Shown here piece after piece: positions 8,117 through 41,704 of a stretch of DNA of 64,000 nt. Numbering within the stretch: position 1 is the stretch's first letter; every line of letters begins with the position of its first letter. The stretch is from Jiangella alba (GTDB lineage Bacteria > Actinomycetota > Actinomycetes > Jiangellales > Jiangellaceae). A model generated the notes under the pieces. The model was not told the origin of the DNA. It did not search any database and saw only the letters and a list, made by a program, of their open reading frames with translations. Both the position numbers and the translations under genes were made by a program. The stretch spans positions 1,736,001 through 1,800,000 of the forward strand of contig NZ_FNUC01000004.1 of NCBI RefSeq assembly GCF_900106035.1, in the 5' to 3' direction.

Positions 8117-8162
8117 GGGTGGGCCTCCCACCCGGCCGGGCGGGGTGTCACCGTCGCCGAAA
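8117..8162 (+). terminator. Hairpin plus repeat tail after panC
   Basis: A perfect 7-bp stem GGGTGGG/CCCACCC with a 3-nt loop (8117-8133) starts nine bases after the panC stop, with no U-run. It is followed by a G-rich tail, closely similar to the tails of the repeats at 13608-13712 and 13768-13871 (shared CGGCCGGGCGGGGTGTCAC and CCGAAA). It may terminate or attenuate transcription between panC and nadB. The rest of the 159-bp gap shows nothing recognisable. Confidence 0.5.
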
Positions 8163-12568: not shown

Positions 12569-13504
12569 ATGCGAGTCTTCCTGGCCGGTGCCACCGGCGC
12601 CCTGGGGCGGTCCCTCGTCCCGCTGCTGATCCAGGCCGGCCACGAGGTGACCGGCACGACGCGCTCGGCGGCGAAGGTCGCCGACCTGAATGCCGCCGGC
12701 GCCGAGGGCGTCGTCATGGACGGGCTGGACGCGCAGAGCGTGGCGGCCGCGGTCCGCACCGCCCGCCCGGACGTCATCGTGCATCAGCAGAGCGCGCTGA
12801 GCGACCAGAGCGGCAACCTGAAGCGGTTCGACCGCGACTTCGCCACCACCAACCGGCTGCGCATCGAGGGCACCGACCACCTGCTGGCGGTGGCCCGCGA
12901 GACCGGAGTGACCCGGTTCGTCGCGCAGAGCTTCACCGGCTGGCCCAACGCCCGCAGCGGCGGCCCGGTGAAGACCGAGGACGACCCGCTCGAGCCGAAC
13001 CCCGAGTCGGCCTGCAGCCAGACCCTGCGAGGCATCCAGTACCTGGAGCGGGTCACCACCGGCACGCCCGGTATCGACGGTCTCGCGCTGCGCTACGGCA
13101 GCTTCTACGGCAACGGCACCGGGCTGACCAGCGAGAAGTTCGCCGGCCTTCTGCGCAAGCGGCAGCTGCCGATCGTCGGCGGCGGCACCGCCGTATGGTC
13201 CGTCGCACACATCGACGACGCCGCGCAGGCCACGCTCGCGGCGATCGAGGGCGGAGCACCGGGCATCTACAACATCGTCGACGACGACCCGGCGCCGGCC
13301 GCGGATGTGCTGACGACGCTCGCCGCTGCGTTCGGCGCGAAGCCGCCGCGCCGGTTGCCCACCTGGCTGGCCCGGCCACTGATCGGCGACTTCGGCGTGG
13401 CGTTCATGACCACACTGCGCGGCTCGTCGAACGCCAAGGCCAAGCGCGAACTGGGCTGGAAGCCGGGGCACCCGAGCTGGCGGCAGGGATTCTACGAGCG
13501 GTAG
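12569..13504 (+). CDS. NAD(P)-dependent epimerase/dehydratase family protein
   Basis: 311 residues, extended-SDR fold. Nucleotide motif GATGALGRSLV at about residues 7-17; the position of the usual YxxxK is not obvious, so catalysis is uncertain. ATG at 12569 follows an AGGAGAAGG ribosome-binding site. It is preceded by a match to the ECF41 promoter and is divergent from the ECF41 gene, the COE (carboxymuconolactone decarboxylase, oxidoreductase or epimerase) context known for that sigma group. Likely the sigma factor's main target. Physiological substrate unknown. Confidence 0.82.
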   Translation: MRVFLAGATGALGRSLVPLLIQAGHEVTGTTRSAAKVADLNAAGAEGVVMDGLDAQSVAAAVRTARPDVIVHQQSALSDQSGNLKRFDRDFATTNRLRIEGTDHLLAVARETGVTRFVAQSFTGWPNARSGGPVKTEDDPLEPNPESACSQTLRGIQYLERVTTGTPGIDGLALRYGSFYGNGTGLTSEKFAGLLRKRQLPIVGGGTAVWSVAHIDDAAQATLAAIEGGAPGIYNIVDDDPAPAADVLTTLAAAFGAKPPRRLPTWLARPLIGDFGVAFMTTLRGSSNAKAKRELGWKPGHPSWRQGFYER

Positions 13505-13510
13505 TCGCCC

Positions 13511-13594
13511 GCCGGCCGGGGCGGGGCCGGTCGTTCTCCGGGGCGGCGGTCCGCGCCGGCCGGGGCGGGGTCGGTCGTTCTTCAAGCGGCGGTC
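13511..13594 (+). repeat. Two tandem 40-bp GC-rich direct repeats
   Basis: Units at about 13511-13551 and 13555-13594 share the pattern GCCGGCCGGGGCGGGG, then CGGTCGTTCT, then GCGGCGGTC. They start a few bases after the dehydrogenase stop and lead into the longer repeats beyond 13608. No gene is visible here. Confidence 0.6.
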
Positions 13595-13607
13595 GGGCCG
13601 GTCACGG

Positions 13608-13871
13608 GCGTGGACGACCGTGCGCGTGAGCGTCGCGCGTTCGAGGTTGTCGGTGCCCGCCCGTAGGGTGGGGGCCCTCCCGGCCGGGCGGGGTGTCACT
13701 CCGGCCGAAAGCTCGGCCGAGGCGTTGCTGTGGCCGAGACCCGAGGCTGAACGTCGTCCCCGATCGTGCGTGGACGACCGTGCGCGTGAGCGTCGCGCGT
13801 TCGAGGTTGTCGGTGCCCGCCCGTAGGGTGGGGCCCTCCCGGCCGGGCGGGGTGTCACTCCGGCCGAAAGC
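13608..13871 (+). repeat. Pair of 105-bp direct repeats with DNA-damage-type promoter motif
   Basis: Copies at 13608-13712 and 13768-13871 are identical except for one G missing in the second. Each contains TTGTCGGTG, eight bases, then TAGGGT (13647-13669 and 13807-13829). This matches the RecA-independent (RecA-NDp/PafBC) promoter pattern TTGTCRGTG-N8-TANNNT in the + direction. The motif is followed by a GGGCCC-containing dyad and a GGCGGGGTGTCAC tail. No convincing ORF follows; downstream is a convergent STAS gene. Confidence 0.7.
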
Positions 13872-13995
13872 AACGACACGGTGCCCGTGCCGAGAGAAGG
13901 CTCAACGACGCGGTGCCCGCGCCGAGAGCCGAAGGCGCGACGGCGCCCGCGCCCGAGAGCTCAAGCCGAGGCGGCACCACCCCGGCCCGAGAAAC
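13872..13995. repeat. Degenerate short tandem repeats, no gene seen
   Basis: About 32-bp degenerate units (AACGACrCGGTGCCCGyGCC, then GAGAG) repeat twice and then decay. The stretch 13505-13995 contains only such repeats and the 105-bp pair. Open frames across it have no start signals or domain resemblance and change reading with each repeat unit. Confidence 0.45.
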
Positions 13996-14337
13996 TCAGG
14001 CGCGGCTGGGCGGCACGATGGGACTGTGCTCGGCGAAGGTCCAGCCGTTCGCCTCGATGGCCCGGTGCGCCGGCCCGCTGACCGCGGCGAACGACACCTC
14101 GTAGCCCGACGTGTGGCCGCGGGTCGACAGCTCGCGCAGGAACTCGATGGCGGCGTCGCTCATGCCCGTGACCCGGTGCATGTCGACGACCACGTGATCG
14201 AGCGCGTTCAGCTGCTCCAGCTGGACGACCCTGTCGATGGCCGGGCCGAACGCGTCGTCGGGATCGGTGCCGACCTCGCCGGCCAGGAACACCACGATCT
14301 CGCGGCCTCCGCGGTCGACGACCTCCACTGTGCTCAT
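13996..14337 (-). CDS. STAS-domain protein (anti-sigma-factor-antagonist-like)
   Basis: 113 residues, predicted alternating beta/alpha. The segment HVVVDMHRVTGMSDAAIEFL resembles the STAS core in which the residue before the helix is a phosphorylatable Ser; here the order is GMSDAA, so phospho-control is possible but unproved. Start ATG at 14337 follows a strong GGAGGTGAGG. No kinase or sigma partner is adjacent. An alternative reading is a stand-alone STAS-like structural protein. Confidence 0.6.
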   Translation of the reverse strand: MSTVEVVDRGGREIVVFLAGEVGTDPDDAFGPAIDRVVQLEQLNALDHVVVDMHRVTGMSDAAIEFLRELSTRGHTSGYEVSFAAVSGPAHRAIEANGWTFAEHSPIVPPSRA

Positions 14338-14442
14338 CGACCTCACCTCCACACCCAGCGTGACAGTTCGTGGTATCGGCGGCAAGCATTCCGCGCCTGC
14401 CCATGAACGGCGGGGAACGTCTACCGCCTAGGCTTGTCCTTC

Positions 14443-15939
14443 ATGAGTGGACAGCCGCCGACCGACGATCAGGATTTGCCCGAGCAACTGCGCATCCGGC
14501 GCGAGAAGCGCGCGGAGTTGCTCGCCTCGGGGCAGCCGCCGTATCGTCTCGGATTCCCGCGCAGCCACACGTTCGACGCGCTGCGGGCGGCATATCCCGA
14601 CTTGCCCCCCGGCGCCGAAACCGGCGACCGCGCCTCCGTCGCGGGCCGGGTGATCTTCCTGCGCAACACCGGCAAACTCTGTTTTGCCCGGCTGCGTGAA
14701 GGCGACGGCACCGAACTCCAGGTCATGCTCTCGCTCGATCGCGTCGGCGAGGAGAGCCTGGCGTCCTGGAAGCACCTGGTCGACATCGGCGATCACGTGG
14801 GCGTCGAGGGCGAGGTCATCGTCAGTAAGCGCGGCGAGCTGTCGGTGTCGGCCGAGCGCTGGACCATGCTTTCCAAGGCGCTGCGGCCGCTGCCGGTGGC
14901 GCACAAGGATTTGAATGAGGAAACCCGGGTCCGGCAGCGTTACGTCGACCTCATCGTCAATCCGGACGCCCGGGCCATGGTGCGAACTCGCGCCGTCGTC
15001 ACCCGGTCGGTCCGCGAAACGCTGCATCGGCACGGGTTCATCGAGGTCGAGACGCCGGTACTGCAGCTGATCCACGGCGGCGCGTCGGCGCGGCCTTTCC
15101 AGACGCATCTCAATGCGTTCGACATTCCGATGACGTTGCGCATCGCCCTCGAGCTGTACCTGAAGCGGGCCATCGTCGGGGGCATCGACAAGGTCTACGA
15201 GATCGGCCGCATTTTTCGAAACGAGGGTATCGATTCCACGCACAGCCCCGAGTTCACCATGCTCGAGGCGTACGAGGCCTACGGCGACTACGACACCATG
15301 GCCGAGCTCATCCGTGACCTCGTCGTCGACGCCGCGCGCGCCGTCGGCCGCACGGTGGTGCCCGACGGCCGCGGCGGCGAGATCGACCTCGAGGCGCCCT
15401 GGCAGCACCTGACGCTGCACGAGGCCGTCTCGGGGGCGGTCGGCGAGACGGTCACCATCGACACCCCGGTCGAGCGGCTGCGCGAACTGGCCGAGAAGCA
15501 CGAGGTCGGACTGGACCCGTCGTGGGGTCACGGCGAGGTCGTGCTCGAGCTGTTCGAGAAGCTGGCCGAGCACACGTTCATGACGCCCACGTTCATCCGC
15601 GACTATCCGGAGGAGGCGCGGCCGCTGGCCCGCCCGCACCGCGACGACCCCCGGCTCACCGAGGCGTGGGACCTCGTCATCCGCGGCGTCGAGATGGGCG
15701 TGGCGTACTCCGAGCTGGTCGACCCCGTCCTGCAACGGGACCGGCTGACGGCGCAGTCGCTCAGGGCGGCCGCCGGCGACCCCGAGGCCATGCAGCTCGA
15801 CGAGGACTTCCTGCGCTCGCTCGAATACGGCATGCCGCCCACCGGCGGCATGGGCCTCGGAATCGACCGCCTGATGATCCTGCTCACCGACTCGGGCATT
15901 CGCGAGACGATCCTGTTCCCGCTGGTGAAGCCGGAATGA
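14443..15939 (+). CDS. lysS: Lysyl-tRNA synthetase (class II)
   Basis: 498 residues. Charges tRNA-Lys in the cytosol. N-terminal OB-fold anticodon-binding domain (about 55-150), then a class II catalytic core with motif 2 FRNEGIDSTHSPEFTMLEAY and motif 3 GMGLGIDRLMILL at the C-terminus. ATG at 14443 is preferred to an in-frame TTG 9 bp upstream. The C-terminus ends in the usual FPLVKPE. The next gene overlaps by 4 bp (ATGA). Length matches bacterial LysS and excludes the longer LysX membrane fusion. Confidence 0.95.
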   Translation: MSGQPPTDDQDLPEQLRIRREKRAELLASGQPPYRLGFPRSHTFDALRAAYPDLPPGAETGDRASVAGRVIFLRNTGKLCFARLREGDGTELQVMLSLDRVGEESLASWKHLVDIGDHVGVEGEVIVSKRGELSVSAERWTMLSKALRPLPVAHKDLNEETRVRQRYVDLIVNPDARAMVRTRAVVTRSVRETLHRHGFIEVETPVLQLIHGGASARPFQTHLNAFDIPMTLRIALELYLKRAIVGGIDKVYEIGRIFRNEGIDSTHSPEFTMLEAYEAYGDYDTMAELIRDLVVDAARAVGRTVVPDGRGGEIDLEAPWQHLTLHEAVSGAVGETVTIDTPVERLRELAEKHEVGLDPSWGHGEVVLELFEKLAEHTFMTPTFIRDYPEEARPLARPHRDDPRLTEAWDLVIRGVEMGVAYSELVDPVLQRDRLTAQSLRAAAGDPEAMQLDEDFLRSLEYGMPPTGGMGLGIDRLMILLTDSGIRETILFPLVKPE

Positions 15940-41161: not shown

Positions 41162-41704
41162 TCGCCAGCCCCACCCTGCGTCGGGGCGGCGGTCGTACCG
41201 GGCGGTGGCGCAGGACGTTGGTGCTGGGGCGGTGGTGGTGGGGCGGTGGTGCGGTGCGGTCGCTTCTGATCGCGCGGTAGGTATGACCCGCCCCTTGAGG
41301 GAGGGTGCCCACCCTACGGGCGGGCACCGACAGACTCGCGCGGCGCCGACAGGCGCCCGCGGCGCTGACCGACGTGCGCGACGGCAACGGACAGGCTCGG
41401 CGCGGCACCGGCAGACTCGCGCAACGCTGACCGACGTGCTTGGCGTGGGCGGGCGGACGCAGCGCCGACCGACGCGCGCGGCGCGCGAACCGGCAGCCCA
41501 GCACTGACGAGGCCCGCGGCACCGACGACAGAACCCCGAATCGCGACATTTCGCCTCACATAGTCACATTCAGGTATACACTCCCGCCGAAGACTTTCTG
41601 GTCAGGAACCGCGAGCCTGACCTGCCTGGCGATCATGGCGTGGCATCGCCGCGCCGTGGGCCGGCGCGCAGGTCTGTGCGACACCTCGGGGGGAGGCGTC
41701 GGCG
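41162..41704. other. 543-bp intergenic region with repeat fragments
   Basis: No gene is visible. On the minus strand CTGTCGGTG-N8-TAGGGT (41333-41311) matches the DNA-damage-type promoter motif of the 13.6 kb repeats, followed by the dyad AGGGTG/CACCCT. From 41335 to 41510 lie degenerate GC-rich segments repeating CCGACAG and GCTGACCGACGTGC. An AT-richer stretch (41545-41600) with TATACA at 41575-41580 may carry the promoter of the next gene. Confidence 0.5.

Follow-up and report, generated by a model that had tools for sequence, protein, structure and literature searches.

Two near-identical repeats between a pair of convergent Jiangella alba genes, each carrying a perfect match to the actinobacterial RecA-NDp/PafBC damage-promoter motif, raise the question of whether such a motif marks a dedicated regulatory site or belongs to the repeat that contains it. 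The initial annotation of the 64-kb stretch of DNA analysed here (the window) described a local duplication of two copies of about 105 bp, 160 bp apart, and this is borne out: the copies measure 105 and 104 bp, start 160 bp apart and differ, as judged by eye, solely by one G that is extra in copy 1 (the ungapped match, 88 nt at 90%, is lowered by this 1-base indel). The motif TTGTCGGTG-N8-TAGGGT, which we class by promoter letters that we take to be TTGTCRGTG-N8-TAnnnT, has exactly two exact matches in the window, one in each copy as originally claimed, with 0 expected from 100 shuffles (Table 1).

Both copies lie in the 491-bp gap (13505-13995) between an epimerase-like gene and a STAS-domain gene. 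The latter is matched in 12 of the 12 genus genomes, and its start codon is uncertain, the codon-usage caller having placed it at 14328. The annotated layout, with no gene downstream of the motifs and then the convergent STAS gene, holds: the crude codon-usage caller predicts no gene within the gap, which mechanical open reading frames do cross, and neither copy has a gene directly downstream, the next one being convergent. Further short direct duplications are found in the gap (13510-13537/13554-13581 and 13871-13896/13903-13928). An Rfam search (E ≤ 5) of a 1501-base stretch spanning the copies returned four weak matches, all far under gathering scores and none accepted. Blastn with 111 bases of the window element gave no match among phages and plasmids, nor did an exact 25-mer search of viral contigs.

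Table 1. Features of the repeat locus, further family members in the window, and three-copy arrays elsewhere in the genome
Feature	Position	Strand	Remarks
Local duplication, copy 1	13608..13712	+	105 bp
Local duplication, copy 2	13768..13871	+	104 bp, one G fewer
Dispersed palindrome-like core, copy 1	13643..13706	+	Model R1, 61.6 bits; R1 training included copy 1
Dispersed palindrome-like core, copy 2	13803..13865	+	Model R1, 58.8 bits; R1 training included copy 2
PafBC/RecA-NDp-type box and -10, copy 1	13647..13669	+	Exact motif
PafBC/RecA-NDp-type box and -10, copy 2	13807..13829	+	Exact motif
NAD-dependent epimerase/reductase-like gene	12569..13504	+	Convergent on repeats; Pfam Epimerase 7.1e-25
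STAS-domain gene	13996..14385	-	Convergent on repeats; Pfam STAS 1.8e-5, above cut-off
Third family member in window	41272..41336	-	R1 47.2 bits, changed box CTGTCGGTG
Partial family member	8117..8158	+	R1 26.0 bits, model positions 24-64; 3' half alone, without box
TT[ACG]AC-type array of three	C3:3136179-3136660		Own genome (G000)
TT[ACG]AC-type array of three	C3:2776864-2777234		Own genome (G000)
TT[ACG]AC-type array of three	C4:3147128-3147479		Own genome (G000)

A dispersed repeat family

The part of the window copies that recurs elsewhere in the genome is a core of about 60 bp, the other part of the 105 bp being mostly local duplication. A DNA search of the genome with the repeat returned 49 hits at E ≤ 10, of which 45 had E-values of at most 1.4e-11, and R1, a sequence-only model built from 48 own-genome copies, gave 147 matches at E ≤ 0.01 across 7.68 Mb. 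With the 4 weakest (E above 0.001) dropped, the family comprises at least 143 matches, partial ones included, a lower bound in that R1 scored 150 of 15453 first-look candidates. The initial annotation had proposed a genome scan for repeat and motif and named a genome full of inactive copies as evidence against its promoter proposal; as regards copy number, this is what the scan returned.

The box reads TTGTCGGTG in 53 of the 143 copies, CTGTCGGTG in 22, GTGTCGGTG in 18 and TTGTCGGCG in 11, with the remainder in smaller classes such as TT[AC]ACnnnG with its 3' half unchanged, and the -10 hexamer is TAGGGT in 119. Three of the 143 were set aside for low matrix score (two partial, one diverged), and 51 of the resulting 140 aligned copies, about one third, hold the exact motif. 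Across the whole genome this motif is found 63 times and its reversed control 0 times; 52 of the 63 occurrences are repeat-borne (the 51 of the aligned set and a weakly scoring copy at C4:2646687) and 11 are single sites outside the repeat. A subfamily with TT[ACG]AC-type boxes, its -10 and palindrome nearly unchanged, forms three-copy arrays (Table 1). Searching records for the core pattern gave 35 stretches, 29 of them from Jiangella; the other 6, from Janibacter, Phytoactinopolyspora, Streptomyces and Saccharothrix, come without the palindrome-like part.

Most copies share no downstream body past about 100 bases. A block of ~550 bp was considered as a longer transcript unit and rejected; because 16 of 141 copies share it and it contains other inverted repeats, we take it for neighbouring repeats. 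At L130:1989-2538 and other loci, some copies are followed by a larger, ordered block in which further inverted repeats occur, AAACCTGGATGATCATGG among them. Folding of eight sequences was at best moderately better than that of their shuffles (z -0.36 to -2.44), and the palindrome is therefore imperfect; the consensus RNA fold has little covariation, with a change on both sides in 2 of 9 pairs. Neither a target-site duplication nor sharp ends could be defined at the two sites compared, where inserts carry tens of extra bases per side, the genome gave 0 matches to the Y1/RAYT transposase (PF01797) at E ≤ 0.001, and no autonomous parent of the element was seen. Because ends, duplications and transposase are missing, membership among MITEs proper is not established.

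Occupied and empty sites

The exact 24-base core occurs in 9 of the 12 genus genomes, the own one (G000) included, at 0 to 77 copies each. At the window junction the elements are confined to G000 and its sister genome G010, two in each, and are absent from 10 of 12 genomes: an exhaustive mismatch scan gave none at ≤6 mismatches in those 10, and the 7-mismatch hits in five of them lie several hundred bases off and represent one common sequence (TTCTCGGTGGCC...) that is not the element. Six of the 12 genomes have the same two genes separated by a short gap (judged by eye), and four have a different neighbour gene, in both cases without the element. A second site, L218, is occupied in G000, G005, G010 and, at a contig end, G008, and is empty in the remaining 8 of the 12; the flank matches stand 6-16 bases apart at the empty sites of G001, G002, G004 and G009, versus about 150 in G000. 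A third, L235, has the element also in G008 and G010. At loci syntenic with G010, copy number runs from 1 to 3.

With genes called by the same crude codon-usage caller, 134 copies could be placed: 101 intergenic, 28 inside open reading frames and 5 in neither class. Of the intergenic copies, 45 occupy 37 convergent gaps, 48 occupy 40 tandem gaps and 8 occupy 6 divergent gaps, and the element-free gaps of ≥30 bp at the same loci number 20 convergent, 111 tandem and 89 divergent (63, 258 and 93 at any length). These control gaps are neighbours rather than a random sample, since the loci were chosen for holding copies. By Fisher's test on gaps of ≥30 bp, convergent gaps are favoured over divergent (p=7e-15) and tandem ones (p=8e-7), and tandem over divergent (p=4e-5); a stricter caller threshold left 36 convergent, 40 tandem and 7 divergent gaps occupied. 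Within tandem gaps orientation has no significant bias (28 same versus 20 opposite, p=0.31).

When 26 of the in-ORF copies were re-scored, 15 had a coding score ≥20 on both sides in one frame, and nine such open reading frames were read (L219, L222, L231, L098, L111, L202, L053, L215 and L230); in these the element lies in frame and contributes a recurring peptide, for example SVPARRVGSLPTGAGSTY or CRCPPVGWAPSLEGRVIPT (SVPARRVG-like or CRCPPVGW-like). Pfam families were assigned to seven of the nine, and in each of the seven the element falls outside the best listed stretches; two of them, the histidine kinase (L098) and the phosphoesterase (L202), match a domain profile over its later portion alone, so that the insert may there divide a domain. 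Insert-free orthologues were found for both of the two genes tested. The beta-N-acetylglucosaminidase carries the element in G000, G010 and G011, and twice in tandem in G002, and is free of it in G003, G004, G006, G007, G008 and G009 (G001 and G005 gave no matched orthologue). GlnD carries it clearly in G000, G010 and G008, has shorter or diverged related inserts in G005 and G009, and is free of it in G001, G002, G004, G007 and G011 (G003 and G006 gave no match). The family is thus dispersed, differs in presence between relatives, changes its local copy number, inserts in frame and prefers convergent gaps.

The promoter motif within the family

PafBC enables the housekeeping polymerase at promoters with a -26 motif, as stated in the excerpted text of PMC11804915. 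In J. alba, pafB- and pafC-like genes are located upstream of tatC, both with WYL and WCX domains and the second matching HTH_PafC at 126.7 bits, and single-site motifs place their -10 at 8, 7 and 6 nt from the start codons of recA, uvrB and dTMP kinase, identities that are backed by family searches; at a further single-site motif (L257), the family search of the gene gave no family. The pafB/pafC pair and the motifs at recA and uvrB indicate, at the level of sequence, that the genome does use the PafBC-type motif. The repeat-borne motifs are placed otherwise: 8 of the 51 intact ones lie within predicted open reading frames, and the 43 intergenic ones divide into 24 convergent, 9 tandem same, 7 tandem opposite and 3 divergent. 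A same-strand gene comes next for 12 of the 43; one intact copy overlaps the predicted start, another is 65 nt from an open reading frame that belongs to an inserted sequence and is presumably its transposase, and the other 10 lie at ≥102 nt. A distance comparable to the 6-8 nt of recA, uvrB and dTMP kinase is seen for 1 of the 43.

Across the 140 aligned copies, the two least conserved of the 23 motif bases are box position 1 (T in 84, or 60%) and box position 8 (T in 108, or 77%), whereas conservation is 89-99% at the eight spacer positions, for which the motif prescribes no base. Because positions 1 and 8 vary while the free spacer stays conserved, it is the element, and not the promoter, that the pattern tracks. 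Conservation is 96-99%, as high as in the spacer, at box positions 2, 5 and 9 and, within the -10, at the T, the A and the final T, and the promoter positions are therefore not simply decaying. Moreover, the exact motif is kept in 12 of 19 copies with ≥2 changes outside it versus 39 of the 121 remaining ones (p=0.019), a hint of constraint on the diverged copies, several of which had originally been gathered by their exact motif and so bias the comparison.

Synteny with G010 covers 14 loci and 16 own copies; the G010 loci had been picked for an exact motif, so that the box comparison is conditional on it. For 6 own copies at 4 of the 14 loci, the box is absent from every sister copy although the flanks are 95-98% identical; the other 10 have their box in common with at least one sister copy. 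At L218 the box reads GTGTCGGTG in G000 versus TTGTCGGTG in G005, G008 and G010, and of the two copies that G010 has at the window junction, one reads TTGTCGGCG. Since so specific a motif (0 expected in 64 kb) is unlikely to be present by chance in an element of 60 bp, we infer that box and -10 descend from, or were captured from, a PafBC-type promoter.

Competing readings and known relatives

We consider it probable, at about three in four, that the repeats are members of a GC-rich, palindrome-like and probably non-autonomous selfish family of the REP/RPE (Rickettsia palindromic element) kind, with a core of about 60 bp and an inherited or captured PafBC-type promoter. Such repeats would have entered gene ends, and also coding genes in frame where the reading frame stays open, spreading by transposition or a similar copying process and multiplying locally as tandem arrays; box and -10 would have been inherited from the founding sequence and, as a rule, not maintained by selection. 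Copies whose box is intact are probably still usable by PafBC-RNA polymerase after damage and would then give short noncoding transcripts as a side effect.

This differs from the dedicated function originally proposed, in which each copy would drive a small RNA induced by damage or a transcript antisense to the convergent gene, which we find unlikely and which the family-wide data do not support. In its favour, 51 of 140 copies hold the exact motif at the correct spacing, pafB/pafC-like genes are present, recA and uvrB carry the same motif, a convergent gene lies ahead of 24 of the 43 intact copies between genes, the -10 is highly conserved and the exact motif is enriched in spacer-diverged copies, a set partly collected by motif. 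However, a family of at least 143 matches, scarce in divergent gaps and sitting in frame within genes, mostly has no common downstream body beyond about 100 bases; its spacer is better conserved than box positions 1 and 8, the own box is unmatched by sister copies at 4 of 14 G010-syntenic loci, and the L218 box and that of one window-junction copy in G010 differ between genomes as described. A somewhat less likely proposal retains the selfish palindromic repeat with its captured promoter and gives the motif a use: damage would open some fifty sites at once, aiding the element's copying when single-stranded DNA is abundant, or titrating PafBC-RNA polymerase and sending antisense transcription into convergent 3' ends, and subfamilies with swapped boxes before the same -10 (CTGTCGGTG, GTGTCGGTG, TTGTCGGCG and TT[AC]ACnnnG) might answer other WYL-type activators.

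The excess in convergent gaps (p=7e-15 against divergent ones) and the GC-rich inverted repeats would also suit transcription terminators or 3'-end structures between genes, a role that we judge very unlikely given that copies occur in frame within genes, orientation in tandem gaps has no significant bias and, at two convergent sites, 10 and 8 of the 12 genomes lack the element; moreover, a scan of 13480-14450 gave no T-run terminator on the forward strand and one on the reverse (13892-13874), outside the core copies. Mobile DUF222/HNH (13E12-type) genes are reportedly damage-inducible, and the repeats might be remnants of such genes with the damage promoter left behind. This origin is largely refuted, and we accord it hardly any credence: DUF222/HNH genes or fragments occur at 3 genomic places, each more than 11 kb from the nearest copy among those listed, and the constant sequence runs past the promoter into the palindrome-like stretch.

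Among known systems, the selfish-repeat reading finds its nearest parallel in the RPEs, which the excerpted texts of PMC2229807 and PMC10969869 describe as small palindrome-like repeats, intergenic as well as in frame in unrelated genes, whose presence differs between species; the Jiangella repeat likewise sits between and in frame within unrelated genes, adds a peptide and varies in presence. It differs in its GC-rich core of about 60 bp, against 105-146 bp in RPEs, in its actinobacterial host, in its PafBC-type box and -10 and in its weak predicted stem-loop. By analogy, and as far as those descriptions go, its features match small selfish palindrome-like repeats, with a habit closest to that of RPEs. 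REP/BIME sequences are short, GC-rich, palindrome-like and multicopy, lie at gene ends and form tandem arrays, all of which applies to the Jiangella repeat; unlike them, it is also found inside genes, and the Y1 REP-associated transposase was not found in the genome. With Correia/NEMIS elements and promoter-bearing MITEs, as excerpted in PMC10969869, it has in common that a dispersed small repeat contains promoter sequence. Correia elements, however, carry sigma70-like promoters mostly just upstream of genes (PMC10969869, same excerpt), whereas the Jiangella motif is of PafBC type and its copies are scarce in divergent gaps; in contrast to MITEs, neither a target-site duplication nor a transposase match was found. 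Compared with RecA-NDp/PafBC promoters, box, spacing and -10 are the same in 51 of 140 copies, but a following gene is as a rule lacking and two box positions vary between copies and sister genomes. A literature search covering titles and abstract openings among the matches listed found no paper on the Jiangella repeat.

A perfect regulatory motif can be repeat-borne, as are 52 of the 63 exact PafBC-type motifs here, and a motif scan of this genome would consequently overstate the damage regulon five- to six-fold. The repeat adds an actinobacterial family to the small palindrome-like repeats with in-frame insertions in conserved genes, and its presence or absence across 12 genomes makes both the way it spreads and any response to damage testable. 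The copies themselves also receive insertions: at L033, L201 and L242, insertion sequences, which we presume to be IS982-like and IS481-like, have apparently landed at CTAG within element copies, taken here as ordinary landing sites.
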